Source: Deltaproteobacteria bacterium (GTDB lineage: Bacteria > Desulfobacterota > Binatia > UBA9968). From it: 62,106 nucleotides of DNA. The DNA lies in contig VGTH01000031.1 of NCBI GenBank assembly GCA_016874755.1, forward strand, positions 1-62,106, read 5' to 3'. Position numbers and translations under genes: made by a program. The notes beneath the pieces were generated by a model. That model worked only from the letters and a program-made list of their open reading frames with translations. It was not told the origin of the DNA and made no database searches. This document shows, in pieces, positions 27,523-48,442 of the stretch. The stretch's first letter is position 1. Every line of letters begins with the position of its first letter.

Positions 27523-30465
27523 TCATTTCCTAGTTTGCTCCGGCGGCATGAAGCCGTGCCGTAAGGTATTTTCCGAGATCGTCCTCGGCTCAAGAAACTG
27601 CAGCAGATAATCCGGCCCGCCGGCCTTCGAGCCGATGCCGGAAAGCTTCAAGCCGCCGAACGGTTGGCGTTCGACAACCGCGCCGGTAATCCCGCGGTTG
27701 ATGTAGAGATTGCCGACGCGAAACTCTTTGCGCGCGAGCTCAATATGCGCCGGCGAGCGCGAAAAGATGCCACCGGTCAGCGCGAATTGCGAATCGTTGG
27801 CGAGCGCCAGCGCGTGTTCGAAGTCTTTCGCTTTGATCACTGACAGCACCGGACCGAAGATTTCTTCCTGAGCGATACGGCTGTGCGGATCGACGTCGCG
27901 AAAGATCGCCGGGCCGACGAAATATCCATCCTTCGGCGCGGCCATTTCGAGGACGCACTTGGCTTGCTTCTTACCGGTACGAATGTAATTTTCGATGCGC
28001 GCTTTTGCCTCGCCATCGATCACCGGGCCGATGGCGTTGCGCGGGTCTTCTGGCGGGCCGATTTTTAGACTTTGGGTCGCGTCCACCAGACGGCTGAAGA
28101 ACCGATCGTGGATTTCGTTGAGCAATATAATGCGCGATGCCGCGGAACACTTCTGTCCTTGATAACCAAAGGCAGAGTCGATCACATGCACCACCGCTTC
28201 ATCCAGATCGGCGTCACTGTCGACGATCAGCGCATTTTTGCCGCCCATCTCGCAGACCACGCGTTTCACGTGCGTCTGTCCCGATTTCGTCGTGTAGGCT
28301 TCGCGGAGAATCTCCAAGCCGACCTCGCGCGAGCCGGTAAAGGCGATCACATGAACCTGCGGCGAGCGCACCAACTGGGCGCCGATGTCACCGCCGCCTT
28401 GCAGGAGCTGCAAAGCGTCATCGGGCACGCCGGCCTTTTGGAGAATTTCGAATAGAGAAACTCCCATGAGCGGCGATTGCTCCGCCGGTTTCATCAGCAC
28501 GCAATTGCCCGCCACCAGCGCCGCCGCGGTCATGCCGGTTAAGATCGCCAGCGGAAAATTCCACGGCGCGATCACTGCGGCTAAGCCGCGCGGCTCGTAA
28601 AAGTAAGTATTGGTCTCGCTCGCTAACTGCTGGGTCTCGCGCGGCTCGGCCAGGCGCAACATCTCGTGCGCATAGTAGTCGAGATAGTCGATGGCCTCGC
28701 AAACATCGGCGTCGGACTCGCGCCAGCCCTTGCCAACTTCGAAAAGTTCTTTGGCCGCCAACTGCCAGCGCTGCTCGCGCATGATCGCCGCGGCTTTGAA
28801 AAGCATCTCGGCGCGCTCGCGCGCTGGCGTGGCGCGCCACTCGGGGAAAAACTGCGTCGCTCTGGCAATCGCCTTTTCCGCTTCCGCGCCGCTTGTGGCG
28901 CGCACCTGACCGAGCTGCTCGCCCGGATTGGCCGGGTTCACCGAATCTATCCAACCTTCGCCACCGCGCCGTCGGCTGGACTTAAGTTCGCCGCGTACAT
29001 CTGCCAGCGTCTCGGCAAAGTTCTCGCGATTTTTTGCCAGCGAAAAATCAATCGGCGCTTCATTGCGAAACTGCCGCGCCCCACTCGACTCACTGCGCCG
29101 CGGCGAAATCGGTTTGGCGTGCTCCGGCGCTTTAATCAAGCCGTCGATGTCTTTTTTGTCGGCGTAGGTCTGGCGCAGAAAGGAAGTGTTCGAGGTATTT
29201 TCCATCAACCGGCGAATCAAATAGGAGATCCCCGGCAAGAGCTCACCCACCGGTAAATAGACCCGCACCCGCTGGCCGTTTTCGATGATCGCCTGGCGCA
29301 CCGGCTCGGCCATGCCGTAAAGCATCTGCATCTCGTAGCCGTTGGCGGGCACGCCGATCTGCTTTGCCGCGACAATCGCATGGGCGAGGCTGCGCAGGTT
29401 GTGACTGCCGAAGGCAGCGTCGATGACGTCATGAGATTCCAGCAAAAGACGCGTCACCTGCTCGTAGCTCGCATCGGTCTCGGCTTTGTCGAGGAAAACC
29501 GGAATGGGCCAGTTTTTCTGCTTCGCCCAAGCGACCTCGCTGTCCCAGTAGGCCCCTTTGACCAAACGCACGCCGATGCGCCGTTTGCGCCGGCGCGCCC
29601 ACTTGATCAGCTCACTTGTGTTCTGCGCGGCGTCAGTCAAGTAGGCTTGCAGCGCAATCGCCGCATAAGGCTGGGCGCGAAATTCTTCCTGCTCCAGCAC
29701 GGAACGAAAGATCTGCAGTGTTAGCTCGCGAAAAGCGTACTGCTCCATATCGACGGTCACCGCCGCTCCGAGCGCAGCCGCCTCGCGAAACAGTTGACGC
29801 AGCCGCTCACGCACGATCGCTTCGGTATTGGGATCGAGGGGATCGAAACGGGCGCACAGCGATGACAGTTTGACCGAAAGATTGACCCGGGGAATCTTGC
29901 CATTGGGCGCTTCGTCGATCCGCGCGATGTCGGGCCACTTGGCGCTGACCGCGGCCAGCCGGCGCATAAGTTGCAAATAGCGCTCCTGCATCGCCGTGGC
30001 TTCGCCGTCGCTCACCGTGGCTTCGCCGACGACGTCGATGGTGAATGCCGCCGGTTCTTTCCGCAGGCTGTTTAAAACCGTCGTGAGATGATTGCCGCTT
30101 TCCTCAGCGATAAAGCGGCGCGCGAGCTTGATAACGTTGCGCTTAACGATGGGCGCGACCAGCGTACCGGCGTGAACCGCCTGGGCGAGGATCGCCAGGC
30201 CGCTGAGCGCGTGATCGACGCGCGCGAAATACTCTTCAAGATGGCGGCCGATCTCGCTCGACGATTCCAGGCTCGGCAGCACATCGACAAAGCGAAACAG
30301 CGCCACGCGCAACGACTCGTCGTCGAGCGACCAGTCGATCATGCGTCCGAGCAAGTCTTGGGCTTCAAAGAGAGAGGGTTTGTGCTGCGCCGCTTTGCGG
30401 TAGAGCGAGCGGGCGAGCTGTTGGACGTCGCGGTCTAGGGCAGTCGTGTCAGTGGTGCTGGCCAT
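27523..30465 (-). CDS. putA: Bifunctional proline dehydrogenase / P5C dehydrogenase
   Basis: 980 residues. The N-terminal proline dehydrogenase barrel has RIGVRLVKGAYWDSE and the C-end YLPVGELLPGISYLIRR. The aldehyde dehydrogenase domain (about 500-960) has VIAPWNFPLAI, catalytic Glu in CEMGGKNA and Cys in GYQGQKCSAA. There is no ribbon-helix-helix DNA-binding domain, so this is the shorter branch-B PutA type known from Geobacter. It oxidises proline to glutamate with FAD and NAD. It lies 50 bp downstream of the thioredoxin-TPR gene. Confidence 0.96.
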   Translation of the reverse strand: MASTTDTTALDRDVQQLARSLYRKAAQHKPSLFEAQDLLGRMIDWSLDDESLRVALFRFVDVLPSLESSSEIGRHLEEYFARVDHALSGLAILAQAVHAGTLVAPIVKRNVIKLARRFIAEESGNHLTTVLNSLRKEPAAFTIDVVGEATVSDGEATAMQERYLQLMRRLAAVSAKWPDIARIDEAPNGKIPRVNLSVKLSSLCARFDPLDPNTEAIVRERLRQLFREAAALGAAVTVDMEQYAFRELTLQIFRSVLEQEEFRAQPYAAIALQAYLTDAAQNTSELIKWARRRKRRIGVRLVKGAYWDSEVAWAKQKNWPIPVFLDKAETDASYEQVTRLLLESHDVIDAAFGSHNLRSLAHAIVAAKQIGVPANGYEMQMLYGMAEPVRQAIIENGQRVRVYLPVGELLPGISYLIRRLMENTSNTSFLRQTYADKKDIDGLIKAPEHAKPISPRRSESSGARQFRNEAPIDFSLAKNRENFAETLADVRGELKSSRRRGGEGWIDSVNPANPGEQLGQVRATSGAEAEKAIARATQFFPEWRATPARERAEMLFKAAAIMREQRWQLAAKELFEVGKGWRESDADVCEAIDYLDYYAHEMLRLAEPRETQQLASETNTYFYEPRGLAAVIAPWNFPLAILTGMTAAALVAGNCVLMKPAEQSPLMGVSLFEILQKAGVPDDALQLLQGGGDIGAQLVRSPQVHVIAFTGSREVGLEILREAYTTKSGQTHVKRVVCEMGGKNALIVDSDADLDEAVVHVIDSAFGYQGQKCSAASRIILLNEIHDRFFSRLVDATQSLKIGPPEDPRNAIGPVIDGEAKARIENYIRTGKKQAKCVLEMAAPKDGYFVGPAIFRDVDPHSRIAQEEIFGPVLSVIKAKDFEHALALANDSQFALTGGIFSRSPAHIELARKEFRVGNLYINRGITGAVVERQPFGGLKLSGIGSKAGGPDYLLQFLEPRTISENTLRHGFMPPEQTRK

Positions 30466-30474
30466 CGCAGATCT

Positions 30475-30510
30475 GTCGGATCCGACCGATCAGTCCGATC
30501 CGTCGGATCA
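30475..30510. repeat. GTCGGATC-type short repeats
   Basis: A perfect 12-bp palindrome GTCGGATCCGAC (30475-30486) is followed by variants of the same octamer up to 30510. It fills the gap between the thioredoxin-TPR gene and putA. Confidence 0.55.
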
Positions 30511-30515
30511 ATTAC

Positions 30516-31370
30516 TCACCGAAACAGCACGGCTGCCAGCTCGGAGCGAAACCGGTCGGTCAGCGGATCTTCCCCGCCCAGCACCTCGAAGATTTGCACC
30601 ATCGCTTTACGCGCGCCGTCGTCTTGAAACTTGCGGTCGGTTTTCACGATGGTCAGAAACTGCGCTAGCGCGTCGCCGTATTTTTCCATGCTGGCGAGGC
30701 TCTGCGCGAGGTCGAAGCGCAGTTGCAGGTTGTTCGGCTCAGCCTCGACTTTAGCGCGCAGCGCCGCTTCGTCTTGCGCGCCACTGCTTTGCAGTTTCAA
30801 CCGCGCGATCAGCCGGTCGGCCTCTTTGCGCTCGCCGGCCACCATCGAGATCCGCTCCAGATACTCCAGCGCGCTCGCTGTGTCGCCGGCGTCCATGGCC
30901 AACTGCCCCAAACCCAACAGAGCGCGGCCGTGGTTGGGATCGCTGTTGAGCACCGCTTCGTACAGTGCTTTCGCTTCAGCGGCTTTGCCATCCTCGGCCA
31001 ACTCAGCGGCCTGCTCGGCGCGTTTGTCTTTTTCGTTGGGCAGAAATTGACCAAGAAACTGTCGCACGGCCGCCTCCGGTAGCGCGCCGGTGAACTCCGA
31101 AGCGAGATCGCCATCGCGAAAAAGCTTCACTGCCGGAATGCCCTGGATGCCGAAGGCCGCGGCGATGCCTTGGTTCTCGTCGACATTGACCTTGGCAAGA
31201 ACAAATTCGCCCTCGTATTCGTCGGCCAGTTTTTCCAATACCGGTCCAAGCACTTTGCACGGCCCGCACCATGGCGCCCAGAAATCGACCAACACCGGCA
31301 CTTGCTGCGATTGATCGAGAACCGCGGTCTCAAAGTTTTCTTCGTTAACTTCGATGGCCCACTGACTCAT
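30516..31370 (-). CDS. Thioredoxin-TPR protein, CnoX/YbbN family
   Basis: About 284 residues from ATG 31370. The thioredoxin domain has an intact WAPWCGPCK (E. coli CnoX has lost the second function of this site), then TPR-like helices around NHGRALLGLGQLAMDAGD and a C-terminal FLTIVKTDRKFQDDGARKAM block typical of YbbN. CnoX holds unfolded proteins under oxidative chlorine stress and delivers them to GroEL. The intact CxxC suggests a redox-active version. In a row with AhpD-like and AI-2E genes. Confidence 0.85.
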   Translation of the reverse strand: MSQWAIEVNEENFETAVLDQSQQVPVLVDFWAPWCGPCKVLGPVLEKLADEYEGEFVLAKVNVDENQGIAAAFGIQGIPAVKLFRDGDLASEFTGALPEAAVRQFLGQFLPNEKDKRAEQAAELAEDGKAAEAKALYEAVLNSDPNHGRALLGLGQLAMDAGDTASALEYLERISMVAGERKEADRLIARLKLQSSGAQDEAALRAKVEAEPNNLQLRFDLAQSLASMEKYGDALAQFLTIVKTDRKFQDDGARKAMVQIFEVLGGEDPLTDRFRSELAAVLFR

Positions 31371-31391
31371 CTGCATTCACTCGTTTCTTGG

Positions 31392-31637
31392 TTATTTTGC
31401 AATTGCATTCTTGCCGAGATCGCGCACCTTGGCGGCCGCGGGACGCATGGCATAGACCAGCGCCTCGGTGATCTCGTCTTCATTGGCGCCGGCTTTGCGT
31501 GCCTGCTCGAGGTGGCGCTTAGCGCCGCCTTCGTGGCCAATGGCAACACAGACCGCAAAGAAAACCAGTTGCGCGGTCTTCGCATCCATCGAGCCTTCTT
31601 TGTACTTCACGTTGAAAAATTCTTTGTCCTGCGCCAC
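31392..31637 (-). CDS. AhpD/carboxymuconolactone-decarboxylase-like small protein
   Basis: 81 residues. GTG 31637 is taken as the start because AAGGAG lies 7 bp upstream; an ATG at 31682 would run into the preceding gene. The helical core (TAQLVFFAVCVAIGHEGGAKRHLEQARKAGA, abridged) and EITEALVYAMR match the CMD family. The peroxidatic C-x-x-C is not present, as only one Cys precedes the family His position. Peroxidase activity is therefore doubtful. 21 bp before the thioredoxin gene. Confidence 0.7.
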   Translation of the reverse strand: MAQDKEFFNVKYKEGSMDAKTAQLVFFAVCVAIGHEGGAKRHLEQARKAGANEDEITEALVYAMRPAAAKVRDLGKNAIAK

Positions 31638-31678
31638 GGCGTTTCTCCTTATGATCTGATGACTAACTATATTCAAAA

Positions 31679-32776
31679 TCAATCCTGCTTGCCAATGTCA
31701 TTTTCCGGCGGTGGGGTTTTCGCACCGGCGTATTCTTGAAGATAGAGATCGAGCAAGGCGCGCAAAAGCGCAAACAACGCCGGCCCGAGGATAATTCCCA
31801 AGGTACCAAAGAGCGCCACACCGCCGAGAATGCCAAAGAACAGAAACAGCACCGGCAGTCCGAGCCGGTTGCCGATCAACATCGGCTTAAGGAAATTATC
31901 GACGGAACCGACAAAGCCAAGACACCAAACCAGCAAAATCACCGCGCGGACACTTTCACCCTGCAGAAAAAGATAGATGGCAGCCGGCACCGACACGAGC
32001 GCCGAGCCGCCCACCGGCAGCAGCGCCATGAACGCGGTCACCACGCCCCACAAAACTGAAAAGGGCACGCCGACCGCCCAGTAGGCGGCGCCTGCGAGCA
32101 AGCCTTGCACCATCGCCACCACCAGCGACCCATGCACGACAGCAGTGACGGCGTCGACGATATTCTTGAACAAACGCTCCTGGTGCTCGCGATCCATGGG
32201 CAGCAAATGCTGAATATGGCGAACGATGCTGGCGCCGTCGCGCAAAAAGAAAAACAACGTGAACAACGTTACGATAAAGTTGACGCTGAAAAGCAAGACG
32301 TTCTGCGCGACGCCGGCGACCTGTGAAACCAAGAAAGACGAGGTCGCCTGCGTGCCTTGCATCAGAAGCTCTTTCCAATCGATCTTGAGGTCGCCGAGCC
32401 GCAGCGCCAGCATGTCCCACCAGCCGAGCAATTGGCGCGCCCAGGCGCGCTGCGACCAGTGGCCGATTTCGTCTTGTTTAAACAGCGACCGCACCGTCTT
32501 CACGAGCGCAACCGCATCGTCGGAAAGAAACCAGGCGATCTCCAGTCCGGGTGCGATGACCAACAACGTTAGTGCGGCGATGATGAGAAATGCCGCCAGC
32601 GTCGAGCGGCCGCGCAACTTACGTTCGAGCCAACTATAAATGGGATAGGTCAGCAGCGCTAAAATCAGCGCCCAGGTGATCGGTACGAGAAACGGACTGA
32701 GAACCAGAAAGCCGACGTAAAGCAGGAGCAACAGTAATGCAAAGAAAAACGCGGTTACCAACCATGTTTGGGTCAA
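31679..32776 (-). CDS. AI-2E family transporter (permease)
   Basis: 365 residues starting at TTG 32776, strongly supported by GGGAGGTGA immediately upstream. About seven to eight hydrophobic segments and the family motifs DGASIVRHIQHLLP, GSLVVAMVQGLLAGAAYWAVGVP and PVGGSALVSVPAAIYLF are present. PF01594 proteins include TqsA-type exporters and Na+/H+ antiporters, so the substrate is open. First gene of the operon running to putA. Confidence 0.9.
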   Translation of the reverse strand: MTQTWLVTAFFFALLLLLLYVGFLVLSPFLVPITWALILALLTYPIYSWLERKLRGRSTLAAFLIIAALTLLVIAPGLEIAWFLSDDAVALVKTVRSLFKQDEIGHWSQRAWARQLLGWWDMLALRLGDLKIDWKELLMQGTQATSSFLVSQVAGVAQNVLLFSVNFIVTLFTLFFFLRDGASIVRHIQHLLPMDREHQERLFKNIVDAVTAVVHGSLVVAMVQGLLAGAAYWAVGVPFSVLWGVVTAFMALLPVGGSALVSVPAAIYLFLQGESVRAVILLVWCLGFVGSVDNFLKPMLIGNRLGLPVLFLFFGILGGVALFGTLGIILGPALFALLRALLDLYLQEYAGAKTPPPENDIGKQD

Positions 32777-32935
32777 TAGTCACCTCCCTGTTCTGGCGCT
32801 CAAATCTACGCACAAGGGTGCGCGGCTGCAAGCCTCGCGCAGTAGCGAGGTGCACTGCTGTTGCAATTCGCGCCGGTGCTCATTACAACCGGCTGATCGC
32901 TGGCCGACTCGATCACGCGATGCGAAGGAGACCCC

Positions 32936-33913
32936 ATGAAGACTATATTAGCCGCGTTTTTGCTTGTGCTCTTCGGCGCCGTTGCGGCGGCCCAAGCGCA
33001 GCAACCTGCCAAGGTTTGGAAAATCGGCGTGCTGGTTTCCGGCTCGCAGGCGCAAAACGCCGCTCGCGACGACGCGCTGCGTCAGGGTCTTAAAGAGCTG
33101 GGTTACGAAGATGGCAAGAACACCGCTCTAGACTTTCGCTACGCCGAAGGCAAGCTCGAACGGTTGCCGCAAATGGCGCGCGATCTCGTCGACCAAAAAA
33201 TCGATTTGATCGTCGTTGGTGGCACCACTGTGGCGGTGGCTGCGAAGAACGCCACGAGCACTATCCCCATCGTTGTCGCCGGTGCGGGCGATCTGGTCGA
33301 GGCGGGCTTGATCAAGAGTTTCATGTTTCCCGGCGGCAACGTCACCGGCGTGGCGCGCATGTCGGCGGATTTTTTCGGCGCGCGCTTGAAGCTAATCAAA
33401 GAAACGTTGCCCAAGGCGAGGGGGGTCGCGGCGCTGACCAATCCGAAAAATCCTGGCCACGAGCGCAGCCGCAAAGATGCTGAGCTTGGCGCTCAATCGC
33501 TGGGCATGAGCTTTCAGACCCATGCGGCGCGTAGCGCCGGCGAAATCGACGGCGCAGTGGCCGGAGCGGCCAGAAGCGGCGCTCAGGCGCTGTTCATCGT
33601 TACCGACGCCACCTACAACAGCCACATGGCGCAAATCGCCCAAGCCGCGATCAAGCATCGCTTGCCGGCGTTTTACGATCGCAGCGAATTTATCGATGCC
33701 GGCGGCCTTGCGAGCTACGGTGTTAACCTGCCGGACCTCTCGCGCCGCGCCGCCGATTACATTGACAAGATTTTCAAAGGCGCCAAGCCCGGCGACTTGA
33801 CGCTGGTGCAACCGATGAAATTCGATCTTGCGTCGAACCTAAAAACCGCCAGTCAGATCGGCGTGACCATTCCCAACGAAGTCGTGCAGCGCGCGGTGAA
33901 AGTTGTAAAGTAA
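32936..33913 (+). CDS. TrpX-like ABC transporter substrate-binding protein
   Basis: 325 residues with a clear signal peptide (MKTILAAFLLVLFGAVAAAQA). PF04392-type features: KVWKIGVLVSG, GLKELGYEDGKNTALDFRYAEG, DLIVVGGTTVAVAAKNATSTIPIV and a C-lobe ending in ASQIGVTIPNEVVQRA. Some relatives bind tryptophan or other aromatic compounds. AAGGAG precedes ATG 32936. No partner permease or ATPase is in the window. Confidence 0.88.
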   Translation: MKTILAAFLLVLFGAVAAAQAQQPAKVWKIGVLVSGSQAQNAARDDALRQGLKELGYEDGKNTALDFRYAEGKLERLPQMARDLVDQKIDLIVVGGTTVAVAAKNATSTIPIVVAGAGDLVEAGLIKSFMFPGGNVTGVARMSADFFGARLKLIKETLPKARGVAALTNPKNPGHERSRKDAELGAQSLGMSFQTHAARSAGEIDGAVAGAARSGAQALFIVTDATYNSHMAQIAQAAIKHRLPAFYDRSEFIDAGGLASYGVNLPDLSRRAADYIDKIFKGAKPGDLTLVQPMKFDLASNLKTASQIGVTIPNEVVQRAVKVVK

Positions 33914-34216
33914 GCGCCTACCCGCGTTTCCCATCCATTAAATTCACCGCGCTATTCACTCGCGCCAATCGGTATTCGGCCGCGGTTCAGGAGCGGTTCT
34001 GGGCTCTTCTCTGCGCTCACGAGTGGGATAGCGACGGCAGCTGGCAGCAAAAGCCACGCCGAGATTCTTGAAATAAGCCAGCTTTCCTCCAATAAAACAG
34101 CCGAAGAAACTTCAGAGCCACCTAACTTCGCCGATGAACTTGAAAAGGCAGGATAATTTGATTGCCGTTTAAGAAAAAAATTTTCAAAAAAAAAATTCTA
34201 AAATGCTATTTTTTTC

Positions 34217-34246
34217 TTGACATACAATTAATTGTGTCATTATAAT
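34217..34246 (+). promoter_or_regulatory. Near-consensus sigma-70 promoter with palindromic spacer
   Basis: TTGACA at 34217-34222 and TATAAT at 34241-34246, 18-bp spacer. Both hexamers are perfect. A 12-bp perfect palindrome ACAATTAATTGT (34224-34235) lies inside the spacer and may be an operator. A- and T-rich tracts at 34155-34216 resemble an UP element. 33914-34216 holds no recognisable gene. Confidence 0.8.
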
Positions 34247-34364
34247 CGCGTCACCTACAAAATATGGGAGGGTTGCAGAGAGCAAAAATCTCTTCGCCTG
34301 AGTCGAAGGTCTGATCCTCTTCAAGAAGTTGCCCACCCATTCGGAATTTTAAAAGGAGGTACTT

Positions 34365-34412
34365 ATGGCTGCAAAGAAAAAAGCCAAGAAGAAAGCCAAA
34401 AAGAAAAAGTAA
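34365..34412 (+). CDS. 15-residue Lys/Ala-rich peptide
   Basis: A complete reading frame of 15 codons encoding MAAKKKAKKKAKKKK, with AAAAGGAGGT at 34351-34360 ending 4 bp before the ATG. It lies about 112 nt downstream of the predicted transcription start of a near-consensus promoter and is followed by a strong terminator at 34498-34533. Composition (11 Lys, 3 Ala) resembles the tails of histone-H1-like proteins, so nucleic-acid binding is a guess. It may instead act as a regulatory leader peptide or be incidental to a regulatory RNA. Too short for a homology-based call. Confidence 0.55.
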   Translation: MAAKKKAKKKAKKKK

Positions 34413-34467
34413 GCTTTGAGATGTGAGGTGGTGGTGGTGGTATAACCCTCCTTAATCTCAGGCGACA

Positions 34468-34488
34468 AGATAGCCGTTCTGGCTATCT
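34468..34488 (+). ncRNA. Stable hairpin in the 3' part of the lysine-peptide transcript
   Basis: AGATAGCC (34468-34475) pairs perfectly with GGCTATCT (34481-34488) around loop GTTCT. It precedes the terminator hairpin by 9 nt and belongs to the predicted 34253-34533 transcript, which may be a structured RNA. Confidence 0.5.
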
Positions 34489-34497
34489 GATAAACAA

Positions 34498-34533
34498 AGC
34501 CCTCCGAAATGCGTCGGGGGGCTCTGTTTTTTT
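34498..34533 (+). terminator. Rho-independent terminator of the lysine-peptide unit
   Basis: 10-bp stem 34498-34507 with 34514-34523 (one G-T pair), 6-nt loop, then a run of seven T at 34527-34533. Confidence 0.88.
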
Positions 34534-34677
34534 GGCTCGTAAAATAGCAACCTAACAGTTCCAGTTCTCGTCTCATTGCTTTAGTCCGCAGAAGAAGATG
34601 GGCTGCACTCTATCAGCAGGAGCCCGATCGCGAGCTCTTGCGTGCCTTTGGGCAGTTGGTTAGATTTCTACCACCCT

Positions 34678-35226
34678 ATGGCCAGGCGTTACTCTAAAGC
34701 GATTTTGTTGAGCTGCTGTTTGGTTTTTCTTGCCGCGTCGGCATTGGCCCAAACCGGTGTCAACTACAAAGTCATACCCAATCTGGAGCCGATGAAAGAC
34801 AAATCACCGACGCCGGATTTCACCGTGGTAGCTCCCGACGGTAAAAAGCTCTCCCTCAAAGACTTCCGCGGTAAAATCGTTTTCTTGAACTTTTGGGCGA
34901 GCTGGTGTGTGCCCTGCCGCGAAGAGATGCCGGCGATGGAGAAACTCTATCAAGAGTTCAAGGACCAAAATTTCGTGGTGTTGGCCATCGCGGTTAAAGA
35001 CCGCCGGCAGGACGCCATCGATTTCGTCAAAGAGTTGAAGCTCACCTATCCGATCGGTCTCGATCCCGATGGCGCGGCTGGCGTGCTCTACGGCGCTTGG
35101 GGACTGCCGACAACCTATCTCATTGGCCCCAAGGGCGAGGGGTTGGCGCGCGCCTGGGGGCCGGCCGACTGGCATGGCGCCAGCGCGCGCAAGCTGATTC
35201 AAGAACTCGTTGACGGCAAACGATGA
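34678..35226 (+). CDS. TlpA/ResA-type periplasmic thioredoxin
   Basis: 182 residues from ATG 34678, chosen because the signal peptide (RRYSKAILLSCCLVFLAASALA) then sits at the N-terminus; GTG 34642 is also in frame. The thioredoxin fold carries Cys77 and Cys80 in WASWCVPC and a cis-Pro in GLPTTYLIG. TlpA/ResA proteins reduce apocytochrome c or copper-site cysteines. It overlaps ccdA by 4 bp (ATGA), so the two act as a reductant pair. Confidence 0.92.
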   Translation: MARRYSKAILLSCCLVFLAASALAQTGVNYKVIPNLEPMKDKSPTPDFTVVAPDGKKLSLKDFRGKIVFLNFWASWCVPCREEMPAMEKLYQEFKDQNFVVLAIAVKDRRQDAIDFVKELKLTYPIGLDPDGAAGVLYGAWGLPTTYLIGPKGEGLARAWGPADWHGASARKLIQELVDGKR

Positions 35227-35960
35227 GCGACGTCAACGTTTTTGTCGCCTTTGCCGCCGGCATTCTGTCTTTCTTGTCCCCCTGTGTTCTGCCGCTGATC
35301 CCGTCTTATCTATCCTTTATCTCGGGAGTTTCGCTGGAAGAAATTCGCGGTGCCCAAGCGCCGGCCAGCGTGCGCCGCCGCGTCGTGCTCAATGCCCTCG
35401 CTTTTGTTTTCGGTTTTTCTCTGGTTTTCGTCTCGTTTGGTGCGTCGGCGAGCTATCTCGGCAGCTTGTTTTTCGGTTATCGCAACGCCATTCGCATCGG
35501 CGGCGGCGTTTTCATCCTGTTGGTGGGAATTTATCTGACCGGTTTAATCAAAATACCGGCGCTCGATCGCTATCTACAGTTCAATCTAAAGGACAAGCCG
35601 GCCGGATACCTGGGCTCGGTATTGGTCGGCATCACGTTTGCGGTGGCCTGGACGCCTTGCGTCGGCCCGATCCTGGGAGCAATTTTGGCGATCGCCGGCA
35701 CGGCAGCGGACGTCAGCCGTGGCATCTTGCTCTTGGCCACCTATGCCGCCGGACTAGCGCTGCCGTTTTTTCTAAGCGCAGTTGCCATTAATTCGTTTTT
35801 TCAGTTCTCGCAAGCGTTTCGCCGCTACATCGAGGCTTTTCATGTCGCCGGTGGCGTGCTGCTGATTCTCGTCGGTGTGTTGCTCATCACCGACTACATG
35901 ACTTACCTGAACGTCTACGTGCTACGTTTCACTCCCGATTGGCTGCTCAAGTTGTTGTAA
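35223..35960 (+). CDS. ccdA: CcdA-type cytochrome c biogenesis membrane protein
   Basis: 245 residues, six predicted membrane helices. The DsbD-like core shows LSPCVLPLIPSYLSFISG and AWTPCVGPILG, each supplying one Cys of the transmembrane pair. It passes electrons from cytoplasmic thioredoxin to the periplasmic TlpA encoded just upstream. Thioredoxin TrxA is encoded 2 kb downstream. Confidence 0.94.
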   Translation: MSDVNVFVAFAAGILSFLSPCVLPLIPSYLSFISGVSLEEIRGAQAPASVRRRVVLNALAFVFGFSLVFVSFGASASYLGSLFFGYRNAIRIGGGVFILLVGIYLTGLIKIPALDRYLQFNLKDKPAGYLGSVLVGITFAVAWTPCVGPILGAILAIAGTAADVSRGILLLATYAAGLALPFFLSAVAINSFFQFSQAFRRYIEAFHVAGGVLLILVGVLLITDYMTYLNVYVLRFTPDWLLKLL

Positions 35961-36073
35961 CCGAGCGCGTCCGCAAGTTTGACCGCCAAGGACCTTAATG
36001 TTAGCTATCTAAATTCGATGGCCTGGACGATCGTCCAAACGAGCAATCAAGAAATCCCGTCGGTTTTGGAGTA

Positions 36074-36625
36074 ATGATGGAAGACTATGTCCGCGCAATA
36101 ATCAAAGACCTCGGTGAAGATCCGGACCGCGAAGGCTTGCTAAAGACACCCCACCGCGTCGCCCAGGCGCTGAAGTTTCTGACCCGTGGCTACGAAATGG
36201 ACCCAGTCAAAGTCATCAACGACGCGCTTTTCACCGAAGATCATGAAGAGATGATCGTGCAAAAGGACATCGACTTTTACTCTTTGTGCGAGCATCACAT
36301 GCTGCCGTTTTTCGGCAAAGCCCACGTCGCCTACATTCCGCACCACAAGATCGTTGGCATCTCAAAACTGGCACGCTTGGTGGATATCTACGCGCGCCGC
36401 CTGCAGGTGCAAGAACGAATGACCAACCAGATCGCTTCGATCATGATGGACAAACTCGACGCGCTCGGCGTCGCCGTTGTGATCGAGGCCGAGCATCTGT
36501 GCATGCGCATGCGCGGCGTCGAGAAGCAAAACTCCTACGTCATCACCAGCGCCCTCCTAGGCGCTTTTCGCACGCGCCAGGAAACCCGCAGCGAGTTCAT
36601 GAACCTGATCCGCAGAAAGGACTGA
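36074..36625 (+). CDS. folE: GTP cyclohydrolase I
   Basis: 183 residues. The zinc ligands are visible: Cys and His in [19 protein letters not shown] (first and fourth residues of CEHH) and the second Cys in [12 protein letters not shown]. It makes dihydroneopterin triphosphate from GTP, the first step to tetrahydrofolate. GGAG precedes the double ATG at 36074/36077. It is 11 bp upstream of pepA. Confidence 0.96.
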
Positions 36626-36636
36626 GCGCGGACGCC

Positions 36637-38109
36637 ATGGAAGTCAAATTTCGCGACGTCGGGCCGGAGAAAATCGCTACCGAGCTGCTGGTTTTGCCGG
36701 TGCAGGGAAAAAAACTGGACGCAGCGCCGCTGCGCGCCCTCGACCGCAGTCTGCGCGGCAAGCTGCGCGAGCGCATCGAGAAAAGCAAATTTACCGGCGC
36801 CGAGGGAAGCAGCCTGCTCTTTCCAACGGTGGGTTTGCTACCGGCAACTCAGCTGTTGCTGATCGGCATGGGCAAAGACTTGGACACCGAGAGTTGGCGC
36901 CGGGCCGGCGCGCGGGCGCGCAAGGAAGCCGGCAGCCTCGCGGCGACTGCGATCGCTTGGTTTTTTACCGAAGTCGATGACGCCGAGCTGGCCGGCGCGT
37001 CGATCGTCGAAGGCATGTTGTTGGCGAGTTATCAGTTCAACAAATACCGCTCCAACGGCAAGGCGCCTGAAGAGCTCAAGTCGCTGACGCTTTTCCGTCC
37101 CGGCATCAATCGCAGCAAGGGATTGACCAACGCTATTGAGGCGGCGCAAAAAGCGACCGCCGGCGTTTCCCTGGCACGCGACCTCGTCAACGAACCGCCG
37201 TCAGTGACCACCGCGCGCTTTCTGGGGGCGCAGGCGCAGCGCCATTGCACCGGGCGCGGTTTGTCGGTGGAAGTCTGGAACAAAAGCAAGATCTCGGCGC
37301 TCAAGCTCAACGGCCTGTTGGCGGTCAACCGTGGTAGTCAGGAAGAGCCGCGCTTCATCAAGATACATTACAAACCGGCCGGTAAAGCGCGCAAGAAAGT
37401 CGCGCTCATCGGCAAAGGCATCACCTTTGATTCGGGCGGTTTGTCGCTCAAGCCGTCAAAGTCGATGGAAACCATGAAGCTCGACATGGCCGGCGGCGCC
37501 GCCGTCATCGCGACCATGAGCCGCTTGCCCCATTTAGGATTCGATATCGAAGTGACCGGCTACGTGCCGACTACCGACAATCTTCCCGGTCCCAACGCGC
37601 AAAAGCCTGGCGACATCATCCGCTACCTAAACGGCAAGACAATCGAAGTGCTCAATACCGACGCGGAAGGCAGATTGATTCTTGCCGATGCGCTCTGTCT
37701 CGCCGCCAAAGAAAAACCCGATTACATGATTAACCTGGCGACGCTCACCGGCGCCTGCGTGACGGCGTTGGGTAATCAGGTCGCCGGGCTTTTCAGCAAC
37801 AACCAAGCGCTCGCCGACAATCTTTTGCGCAGCTCGCGCGACGCCGGCGAAAAACTTTGGCAGCTGCCGTTGGTGAAAGAATACAAAGAGATGATCAAAA
37901 GCAGCGTCGCCGACATGAAAAACATCGGCGGCGCTTCAGGCGGCGCGATCACCGCCGCGTTGATTCTGCAAGAATTTGTCGGCGACGTGCCCTGGGCCCA
38001 TCTTGATATCGCCGGCCCGGCGTTCTCCGAAAGCAACACGCCGCTCTGTCCCAAAGGCGGCACTGGATTCGGTGTGCGCACGCTGTTAAAGTTTTTGAGT
38101 AACCTCTAA
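36637..38109 (+). CDS. pepA: Leucyl aminopeptidase (M17)
   Basis: 490 residues from ATG 36637; in-frame codons upstream to 36286 only reflect an open frame inside folE. Metal and catalytic motifs: GKGITFDSGGLSLKP with the active Lys, and NTDAEGRLILADAL, the M17 signature. It is a hexameric two-metal exopeptidase that recycles peptides. It is followed by trxA after 18 bp. Confidence 0.96.
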   Translation: MEVKFRDVGPEKIATELLVLPVQGKKLDAAPLRALDRSLRGKLRERIEKSKFTGAEGSSLLFPTVGLLPATQLLLIGMGKDLDTESWRRAGARARKEAGSLAATAIAWFFTEVDDAELAGASIVEGMLLASYQFNKYRSNGKAPEELKSLTLFRPGINRSKGLTNAIEAAQKATAGVSLARDLVNEPPSVTTARFLGAQAQRHCTGRGLSVEVWNKSKISALKLNGLLAVNRGSQEEPRFIKIHYKPAGKARKKVALIGKGITFDSGGLSLKPSKSMETMKLDMAGGAAVIATMSRLPHLGFDIEVTGYVPTTDNLPGPNAQKPGDIIRYLNGKTIEVLNTDAEGRLILADALCLAAKEKPDYMINLATLTGACVTALGNQVAGLFSNNQALADNLLRSSRDAGEKLWQLPLVKEYKEMIKSSVADMKNIGGASGGAITAALILQEFVGDVPWAHLDIAGPAFSESNTPLCPKGGTGFGVRTLLKFLSNL

Positions 38110-46903: not shown

Positions 46904-48442
46904 TCAGATCCTTTTGCAAACCAGCCCACCGCAAAAAAATAGCAGCGCTAGGAGCAGATAGGCGAGGAAAAACTCCGGCGCCGCCATCCAACCAAAGCGG
47001 CTGACGATACCGCCCGCTGTTAGTTCGTATGCATGTATGATTCCGGTCGCTGACAGTAGTGCGGCGACAATCGACCAGGCGGCGGCTTTTGCGAATTGAC
47101 GCTCGATTAGAGCCACGCCGATGGCGGCGAGAATCATCGAGGTAAAAATAAAGCCGCGCTCCAGCGAGATCATGCCGTGGATCGCGACGCTCTCACGTGC
47201 GAACGGTGCAAGCCCAACTTGGAAGAGTGATTTGCCAGCCGCGCGTAATCCGGTCTCTAACATCAGCAAACCCCAGCCCGCCAACGCCGGCACGATTCCC
47301 AGCGCCACCGCCGGGGCGTGCTCTTTCGGTGTTTCCTGAAACGCTTGCGCCATGATGACAATACCGATGTACAAAAGAATGCCGATGCCCGCTTCGAGGG
47401 GTATCAGCCCTAACACCGCTTGCATGGTGCCAGTTAAGCAGAGAAAACTGATGAATACTCCGTTCAAAGTAGAGTAGCCCACCCGTGCGCCAAGCCGCTT
47501 CCATCCGGGATGGCCGATGTAAATCGTGGTCGGAAATACGCTGCCGAACAACGCCGCTACCACCGATCCAATGCCGTTGGCCATCAATGAAGGGAAAGTT
47601 TTGAAACGGTCGCCGGCGGCTTCGGCGCTCTCGATATTCTGCAGCGAACCGACGACGTTGAAAATCCCCATCGGAAAGATCACTGAGAAGTAGCTGAGAA
47701 AAGAGGGGTGGGTCAGCGCTTCCCAGAGCGAGCCGCCGGCGTACTGCGGTAGCGCCAACGAGACATTGAAATGAAGTGCGTCGCGATTCATGAGGCCCAG
47801 CCCCCAACCCAGAATGGTACCGAGGCCGATAGCCACCATCCCACCCGGCAAACCCAGCGGCAATTTCTGATGCGAAAAGTAGGCGACAAAAATGAGTGCC
47901 ATGGGCAGCAGCGCGACTAGAGGGCGCGAATAAATCTTAAAAGTGAAGTCCATCGCGATGAACGTGATCGCGATGCCTGACAGAGCCGAAAGCAGCGCCG
48001 CCCGCGGCGTCACCCGCCGCACGCTTTCGGCGACGAAGGCGCCGACGATTTCAATCACGCCATTGAGAAAGCAAGCGACCAGCCCCACTTTCCAAGCCCA
48101 AACCGGATCTTTGGTCTCCAGATAGATCGGCAGCATGATGAAAAAGACGAAAGCGAACAACGCCACGGTGTTGATGCCGTAAGGCAGCGCCGTGATGTCG
48201 TCGCGCCCGCTCTCGCGCATCAACCGGTGCGCCTGCCAGGCATAGAAGAAATTGCCAACCAAAATCGAAAGCGCTGCGCCGGGAAGAATCATGCCAAAGA
48301 TATAACTGTCGGGCAGATGAACCAGCTCGCGGCAAAGTGTGACGATTAAAATCAACTGGATCAGGTTGTCGATCATCAACCCGAAAAAGCCGTCCCAGTC
48401 TTTGCGAACAAACCAAGGGGGATTGAAAGAAGCGTGCGCCAT
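46904..48442 (-). CDS. NCS2-like purine/xanthine permease family protein
   Basis: 512 residues from ATG 48442 (an in-frame start at 48502 adds 20 unlikely residues). About 12 to 14 hydrophobic helices. GRDDITALPYGINTVALFAF, LNGVIEIVGAF and a central NIESAEAAGDRF resemble AzgA-type NCS2 permeases. The substrate is uncertain, as the identity of key residues cannot be aligned here. Single gene, convergent with the phosphatase. The 334 bp upstream (48443-48776) shows no gene. Confidence 0.75.
   Translation of the reverse strand: MAHASFNPPWFVRKDWDGFFGLMIDNLIQLILIVTLCRELVHLPDSYIFGMILPGAALSILVGNFFYAWQAHRLMRESGRDDITALPYGINTVALFAFVFFIMLPIYLETKDPVWAWKVGLVACFLNGVIEIVGAFVAESVRRVTPRAALLSALSGIAITFIAMDFTFKIYSRPLVALLPMALIFVAYFSHQKLPLGLPGGMVAIGLGTILGWGLGLMNRDALHFNVSLALPQYAGGSLWEALTHPSFLSYFSVIFPMGIFNVVGSLQNIESAEAAGDRFKTFPSLMANGIGSVVAALFGSVFPTTIYIGHPGWKRLGARVGYSTLNGVFISFLCLTGTMQAVLGLIPLEAGIGILLYIGIVIMAQAFQETPKEHAPAVALGIVPALAGWGLLMLETGLRAAGKSLFQVGLAPFARESVAIHGMISLERGFIFTSMILAAIGVALIERQFAKAAAWSIVAALLSATGIIHAYELTAGGIVSRFGWMAAPEFFLAYLLLALLFFCGGLVCKRI

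Follow-up and report, generated by a model that had tools for sequence, protein, structure and literature searches.

A candidate gene for a minimal H1-tail-like microprotein on an mRNA probably paired end to end

The his and thr leader peptides are encoded by short ORFs that have runs of one amino acid and are accompanied by a terminator, and in the hok mRNA of the hok/sok system the 5′ and 3′ parts pair around the ORF of a small protein. What hok encodes is a membrane toxin, and an antisense RNA controls it. The tails of AlgP and PhaF that are rich in lysine, proline, and alanine are reported to bind DNA and to organize or space granules on the nucleoid (PMC9239181). For chlamydial hctA, translation is reported to be under the control of the sRNA IhtA (PMC4355289, PMC3469542).

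The locus described here, a 15-codon lysine-rich ORF in the window (the whole 62,106-nt stretch of DNA that was analyzed), resembles each of these systems in part. With the bacterial H1-like proteins (the AlgP and PhaF tails, Hc2, and the Burkholderia H1-like protein) it shares richness in lysine, alanine, and proline and an almost complete lack of acidic residues; it differs in that the product in the window's own family (f1) and in its sister family (f2, a single genome) has only 12–19 residues, no other domain, and a looped mRNA. With hctA and IhtA it shares the combination of an H1-like protein with RNA base pairing, but the partner there is a separate sRNA, whereas here both strands lie in one mRNA and a regulatory effect is presumed. 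The hok mRNA has the same pairing of 5′ and 3′ parts around an ORF, but the peptide of the present unit is not hydrophobic. The his and thr attenuators have in common with it a short ORF, single-residue runs, and a terminator; unlike them, the window has no amino-acid gene downstream, and in many genomes the unit occurs without the hydrolase gene discussed below. An H1-like basic protein with control at the RNA level is of a known kind. The matches listed in the open-licence literature included no description of the element, and to our knowledge neither so small a product, nor the looped mRNA, nor a unit spread through the class was known before. We consider it somewhat more likely than not that the locus is a gene for a minimal polycationic microprotein resembling an H1 tail, with an mRNA tied end to end.

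Organization and distribution of the unit

The features of the unit in the window are as follows.

About 34172–34216, + strand: A/T-rich UP-like tract, in which TAAAATnnTATTTTTTTC hardly varies among the f1/f2 relatives
34217–34246, + strand: sigma-70-type promoter, TTGACA-N18-TATAAT, agreeing with the consensus at 12 of 12 positions
34253–34364, + strand: leader of about 112 nt, with a start that is predicted, not mapped
34266–34275, + strand: 5′ strand of helix H1, GGGAGGGUUG, pairing with 34443–34452
34294–34302, + strand: 5′ strand of helix H2, UCGCCUGAG, predicted to pair with 34457–34465, which would close a loop around the Shine-Dalgarno (SD) sequence and ORF
34353–34360, + strand: SD sequence AAGGAGGT, assigned by sequence and conservation
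34365–34412, + strand: micro-ORF MAAKKKAKKKAKKKK, stop included, assigned by sequence, codon-wise length changes, and composition
34443–34452, + strand: 3′ strand of H1, UAACCCUCCU, which crosses H2 in a pseudoknot topology
34457–34465, + strand: 3′ strand of H2, CUCAGGCGA, assigned by pairing on the alignment and by RNAalifold
34468–34488, + strand: hairpin with the loop GUUCU, the stem of which covaries in relatives
34498–34533, + strand: intrinsic terminator, the stem of which covaries in relatives

The TTGACA (34217–34222) and TATAAT (34241–34246) boxes are separated by an 18-bp spacer. Exact TTGACA-N16-18-TATAAT occurs at two sites in the 5.56-Mb genome, one of them the micro-ORF promoter, and the backward control of this pattern gave no site in the same genome. 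The only other perfect match lies on another contig (L218, C30:10926), and the 3 kb around it contain no tRNA, tmRNA, or Rfam RNA. On the minus strand at the locus, the promoter scan returned two weak sites, each with 9 of 12 consensus positions. At the other end of the unit, the terminator stem (34498–34523) is followed by a T-run and, with 10 pairs, is the longest among 18 terminator-like sites in 30000–38000, a region whose shuffles contain 12.4 such sites on average. Folding of the RNA from 34253 to 34533 gave z = -2.76, with 3 of 200 dinucleotide shuffles equally or more stable. The initial annotation had pointed to perfect -35 and -10 hexamers, upstream A/T tracts, a 112-nt leader, an SD sequence with a 15-codon frame, a strong terminator, and a structured transcript, and all of these were recovered, the last in the more specific form of a 5′-3′ helix enclosing the ORF. 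It had also singled out a 12-bp palindrome within the promoter spacer; ACAATTAATTGT is indeed present at 34224–34235 but was found in 1 of 21 f1/f2 loci, the window's own, and by this comparison it has no conserved meaning.

A DNA search of 58 genomes, the window's own included, matched 24 at E ≤ 0.01, of which 21 had long matches (E ≤ 2.4e-30). The unit is found in 20 of 25 f1 genomes (own included) and in the sole f2 genome, and in none of nine f3 genomes; the window's genome has one full-length copy. R1, a sequence-only covariance model, recovered the same 21 genomes strongly (E ≤ 5.5e-51) among the 35 of the order, with weak matches (E from 1e-4 to 0.09) in nine more. Over 148 genomes of the class (one of uncultured bacteria), in a scan with stricter filters in which weak matches are lost, R1 gave 59 matches at E ≤ 0.001, comprising the 21 f1/f2 loci and 38 others (11 in f6, 6 in f8, 1 in f9, 5 in f10, 8 in f11, 5 in f14, and 2 in f15), and the remaining 89 genomes, all nine of f3 included, had no match at this threshold. 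Among 395 genomes sampled from the phylum there were 13 matches at E ≤ 1e-4, eight of them outside the class. Three of these eight (f28) make up all the genomes covered of their order, and each carries the unit, with the ORF MPTKKKAAKKKAKKPAKKKK or one near it. The matches in the other five genomes were set aside: L203 and L204, from one genome, have no lysine-rich micro-ORF and are not members; L209 resembles the end of some longer frame and was not counted; and L206–L208 have short SD-led lysine-rich ORFs (e.g. MAAKKKAAKKTTKKTAKKGSKSSCKSC), belong to other families of the phylum, and were not counted as members. By eye, L205 and L211 share a downstream frame, ...AGVIPGxREA-x-PRD, in which L205 has TGA and L211 has TGT (Cys); the TGA is possibly a selenocysteine codon or the mark of a degraded frame. 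In blastn searches of plasmids and phages the window element matched nothing, and viral contigs contained no instance of the exact 3′ pattern.

The promoter can be followed through most of these relatives. The alignment of the 21 f1/f2 loci has a nearly invariant promoter around TTTTTTTCTTGACATAC, and a related A/T-rich tract also lies upstream of the unit in most other families. Outside f1/f2, the TTGA box aligns in 32 of 38 class loci, the six exceptions being f6 loci with long ORFs; therefore, the promoter of these six differs, and their orthology rests on the hydrolase gene and the helix. A search for bare TTGA[CT] upstream fails in four of the 38, all of them long-ORF f6 loci. Two of the f28 loci have the promoter TTGACATACTACTTATTGTTACAATATAAT, and the third has one closely similar to it. 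By alignment, then, the promoter is conserved in most families, and it would be expected to give strong constitutive expression. Upstream of the -35 box in loci L163–L200 we also noted a DNA block, TARAACnnnCTGyTA followed after about 20 nt by GAACgcCATTyTA and then an A-tract, which is present in most non-f1 loci, is not evident in f1, and by its appearance suggests a region for an activator or an UP region.

The micro-ORF and its product

The window ORF starts with ATG at 34365, has 15 codons, and ends with TAA at 34410–34412. An SD-led lysine-rich ORF is present in 59 of 59 class loci, a count that is partly the result of selection because R1 was built on f1/f2 with the ORF included and the ORF script required at least 25% lysine; outside the class, such a frame is present in all three f28 loci. 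GGAGG lies exactly 5 nt before the ATG in 56 of the 62 loci and 4–8 nt before it in the others. In the 21 f1/f2 loci the peptides have 12–19 residues, consisting of lysine and alanine after the initiating methionine with a single threonine, proline, or arginine in six, and the ORFs differ in length by whole codons. Ungapped pairwise comparison of f1/f2 ORFs of equal length placed 179 of 282 differences at codon position 3, the pairs not being independent. None of the 21 f1/f2 loci has a broken frame. Conservation of this kind suggests that the frame is translated. The initial annotation had allowed for a small RNA with an incidental frame, here a purine-rich one, and the transcript is indeed RNA-like. 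We now regard this reading as scarcely credible, because the SD sequence and ATG frame are kept, the length changes are codon-sized, and the differences are biased to the third position, which together exclude an incidental frame. Two side matches may be recorded here. Among ATG ORFs of 8–58 residues with at least 30% lysine, the window contains the micro-ORF and MRKNYKKWS, the latter on the minus strand at position 48044 as numbered along the minus strand, which corresponds to about 14063 of the window, and with no SD sequence. A weak ORF match elsewhere in the window's genome (L002, contig C48) lies, by eye, in the C-terminal tail, rich in lysine, of an unrelated frame of greater length.

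Over the 62 loci the products total 1650 residues, of which 854 are lysine (52%), 453 alanine (27%), 93 proline, 74 methionine, 50 threonine, 43 serine, 32 arginine, 23 glycine, 20 valine, 4 leucine, 2 glutamine, and 2 aspartate; glutamate, phenylalanine, tryptophan, and tyrosine do not occur. Examples from other families are MAAKKKASKAKKKAPAKKGAAKKKK (f8), MAAKKKAKKAKKKSKAKKKAPSKKKGSKKK (f10), and MAAKKAAAKKPAKKAPAKKK (f6). Product size across the relatives ranges from 12 to 78 residues, the upper end being represented by six f6 loci (L178, L180, L183, L186, L191, and L193) with ORFs of 61–78 residues that contain repeats of the AAKKAPAKK type and precede the same α/β hydrolase. At the level of sequence, the SD, the frame, the character of the product, and the terminator are conserved.

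No hydrophobic stretch, and hence no membrane-spanning segment, is found in the peptides of any of the 62 loci. This bears on a hok-like type I toxin, in which fold-back pairing around the micro-ORF would inhibit the mRNA of a toxic peptide. Pairing of the 5′ and 3′ parts around the ORF is what such a system would have, but the composition of the peptide, the single full-length copy in the window's genome, and the absence of blastn matches in phages or plasmids all argue against it, and we consider it very improbable.

The initial annotation had stated that no known gene family fits. This holds for Rfam, as described below; for protein libraries the statement does not bear on the window peptide itself, a 15-mer being under the 20-residue minimum of the scans, and the longest relative has a weak likeness to H1. 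This 78-residue product (L191) matched PF07382 (HC2) with E 0.0012 and 19.4 of the 40 bits needed, and NF038053 (hist_H1_lk_Burk) with E 7.8e-5 and 23 of 80 bits, both below the cut-off. Relatives of 30 and 40 residues matched no Pfam family, and the 40-residue one matched no NCBIfam family. The products of the 62 loci have the basic composition of histone H1-like proteins, rich in lysine, alanine, and proline, and the lysine-rich proteins scanned lie far below the curated Pfam and NCBIfam cut-offs; the H1-likeness is mostly one of composition. The longer relatives look like a lone tail of the AlgP/PhaF type. Among the roles suggested by the initial annotation, that of a nucleoid-binding microprotein has gained the most support, the longer H1-like relatives and the composition both pointing to it.

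Probable pairing of the leader with the 3′ region

In f1/f2 the leader contains two conserved blocks, GGGAGGGUUU and CGCCUGAG, and the 3′ region another two, AAACCCUCC and CUCAGGCG. The strands of H2 are the leader block CGCCUGAG and its complement CUCAGGCG, and those of H1 are GGGAGGGUUU and its complement AAACCCUCC. On the f1/f2 alignment, 95.8% of the cells are paired in H2 and 95.2% in H1, percentages that prove little alone because the alignment columns hardly vary. RNAalifold proposed H2 unprompted. Covariation on this alignment is seen in the terminator and in the hairpin, the loop of which is GUUCU or GUCCU. An unguided mutual-information scan of f1/f2 was of little use, with two of the top 45 pairs fitting a named helix (columns 256–266 and 254–268, in the hairpin) and the other top pairs reflecting relatedness. 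A third helix in f1, CCCRCC/GGUGG, had 87.6% of cells paired and thin covariation and was left out.

Since the f1 strands of H2 are nearly invariant, its covariation comes from other families, in which the H2 position is filled by unrelated complementary sequences:

L190 (f14): leader/3′ helix GAGUUCGAGACGGGGG/CCCCCGUCUCGAACUC, 16 bp
L196 (f9): leader/3′ helix CUCGUGCGGAGGGA/UCCCUUCGCACGAG, 14 bp
L177 (f11): leader/3′ helix GGGACGUCAGGAC/GUCCUGGCGUCCC, 13 bp
L178 (f6): leader/3′ helix UCUUCCGCCUU/GAGGCGGAGGA
L175, L185, L189, L192, and L200 (the five short-ORF f6 loci): leader/3′ helix UCCGCCUAGGG/CCUUAGGCGGA, 11–12 bp
L169: leader/3′ helix GAGUCUCGCCC/GGGCGAGAUUC, for which the distance filter mis-picked another helix in the crossing-helix test

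The corresponding helix has 17 bp in f28 and is weak in L182 and L187 (f11). In the helix test, the score was that of the best contiguous helix joining some 100 nt ahead of the SD sequence to the 85 nt that follow the stop, and loci were then given each other's partners. None of 20,000 partner shuffles did as well as the native pairing, whether the test covered all 59 loci (z -9.3), a set of 33 representatives (z -7.6), or the 22 of these that lie outside f1/f2 (z -6.6); as any position in the two regions can supply the best helix, what is scored in f1/f2 is mostly H1. In the decoy test applied locus by locus, 7 of 78 decoys were at least as good as the native partner for the window and more than half for some loci, a comparison that is often not decisive because strands common to f1, f8, and f10 make good decoys; the claim of a long-range helix therefore rests on the pooled shuffles. 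The stretch of leader used in the helix, shuffle, crossing, and folding tests was too short for the short-ORF f6 loci, so that four of these five entered with wrong picks (L175 was right). With a 200-nt leader all five show the helix, 110–132 nt before the ATG. RNAduplex over the whole leader and 3′ region chained small pieces and gave no discrimination (family means of z from -1.4 to +0.3).

It is only in f1/f2 that the crossing helix H1 stands out clearly. Outside these families it is weak (z -1.9, with 693 of 20,000 shuffles as good); an H1-like candidate, UGGUGGGUGGCU/GGCCAUUCACUA, recurs in f14/f15, and we make no general claim for it. An mRNA of the window's family with both H1 and H2 formed would be a pseudoknot. 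Nested folding of single sequences cannot hold both helices because they cross; with it, the probability of the picked H2 exceeded 0.5 in 28 of 62 loci and was 0.00 in the window, some of the picks (L169 and the short-ORF f6 loci) being wrong. In the window itself, H2 is a candidate helix. The 5′ strand of H2 ends mostly 40–62 nt before the ATG (21–33 nt in most f11 loci), and the 3′ strand starts mostly 22–76 nt after the stop. Since the strands are mostly clear of a ribosome at the start codon, most families could initiate translation inside the closed loop. Taken across families, these comparisons indicate a covarying long-range helix that closes a loop around the SD sequence and ORF.

Retention of the long-range helix, of the crossing helix in f1/f2, and of a hairpin and terminator that both covary, in a transcript as short as this, might suggest that the RNA itself is the product, either a structured regulatory RNA or an RNP, with a peptide that is secondary or binds its own RNA. 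We consider this unlikely: the leader and 3′ sequences are replaced between families while the SD sequence and the character of the peptide stay, and a pure regulatory RNA would leave the kept frame unexplained. Neither the window nor 16 distant loci matched an Rfam family at the gathering score. Sub-threshold Rfam matches of the window (the best with E 0.033, on the minus strand over the terminator) were taken as chance. ARAGORN found no tRNA or tmRNA in the window, and no tRNA-like domain of the tmRNA type was recognized.

Gene neighborhood and proposed function

In the window, Pfam assigns the upstream neighbor to the ABC substrate-binding proteins and the downstream neighbors to a TlpA-like redoxin, a CcdA/DsbD-type membrane protein, and GTP cyclohydrolase I. 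Among its 20 relatives in f1/f2, as far as the contigs and the picking of ORFs reach, the unit is followed in the same orientation by a conserved series of genes for an α/β hydrolase, TlpA, CcdA, FolE, PepA, and thioredoxin, and the genes upstream of it vary. In 11 of these 20 the hydrolase gene comes directly after the unit; in one it lies behind a 566-residue ORF, and in eight and in the window (9 of 21 loci) it is absent from the place, the parts of the unit being kept there. For the 38 class loci outside f1/f2, it lies within 200 nt downstream in 25, many at the T-run, lies 1.5 kb away in one, and was not found in the stretch covered in 12; it was found in none of the three f28 loci, with stretches of 269–1521 nt. 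Several of the hydrolase-less loci L041, L043, L046, L047, L052, and L055 have, by eye, a recurring promoter-like TTGYGYC..TAnAGT before tlpA. The five f1 genomes that lack the unit (G016, G018, G019, G020, and G021), two of which are 97–98% complete, gave no match to FolE or CcdA either; the block as a whole is therefore missing from them, through loss, incomplete assembly, or a recurrent assembly gap. In f3, four genomes examined have FolE, PepA, and thioredoxin together, with no TlpA or CcdA in front. The CcdA region of one of the nine f3 genomes has the hydrolase adjoining CcdA behind a divergent gene that by eye resembles ExbB/TolQ, and no lysine-rich short ORF lies between.

This neighborhood invites comparison with an attenuator, in which the lysine-rich leader peptide would sense lysyl-tRNA and readthrough of the terminator would control the hydrolase (and TlpA-CcdA). 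The short ORF with single-residue runs followed by an intrinsic terminator has the expected form, and where the hydrolase comes next there is little room for a separate promoter. In many of the loci L163–L200 and L044–L060 its frame opens 0–45 nt after the T-run (108 nt in L049), so near that its expression may depend on terminator readthrough. By eye, an antiterminator could form between GGAGGG in the leader and CCCUCC in an arm of the terminator, an arm that varies. The f1/f2 loci without a hydrolase nevertheless keep the parts of the unit, several of them with a promoter-like TTGYGTC..TAnAGT seen by eye at tlpA, and the gene was likewise not found in the stretches around 12 of the 38 other class loci and all three f28 loci. 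The genes downstream in the window are not lysine genes, and an ORF of up to 78 residues in six relatives does not suit a leader peptide. Judged from gene order, the unit is independent of the downstream gene, and we think attenuation quite unlikely to be its function.

For the reading that we favor, a minimal H1-tail-like microprotein on an mRNA tied end to end, the following mechanism is proposed. The near-consensus promoter and its A/T-rich upstream tract would produce an mRNA of ~280 nt that ends at its own terminator. H2 would pair the leader with the 3′ region over a long distance, presenting the SD sequence and ORF in the loop, and the closed loop should be translatable because both strands of H2 lie mostly outside a ribosome at the start codon. 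The loop most likely stabilizes the mRNA and tunes translation; it might guard the body of the mRNA and favor re-initiation on an ORF that spans one or two ribosomes. The product would be an almost featureless polycation of lysine, alanine, and some proline, equivalent to an H1-like disordered tail cut to 12–78 residues. It would be abundant and, by analogy with H1-like proteins, would bind polyanions, most likely coating or condensing chromosomal DNA and possibly RNA or polyphosphate, although a polylysine peptide of 15 residues may be degraded quickly. Possibly the basic product feeds back on its own RNA. A more speculative form of the proposal, which we hold to be unlikely, is that these are self-organizing RNA-peptide genes, in which an end-locked abundant RNA displays the micro-ORF and the polylysine product binds both that RNA and DNA, as a minimal autoregulated component of chromatin or of a condensate that has been reduced from an H1-like ancestor to a dozen residues.

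Annotation tends to pass over genes as short as this, yet here the promoter is one of two in the genome that agree perfectly with the consensus, and the architecture of the mRNA is kept across families. The enclosing helix, backed by covariation, raises the question of what effect the tying of mRNA ends has on the translation of a micro-ORF. Should the peptide bind nucleic acid, few histone-like proteins would be smaller, and the range from 78 residues down to 12 would show how little suffices.
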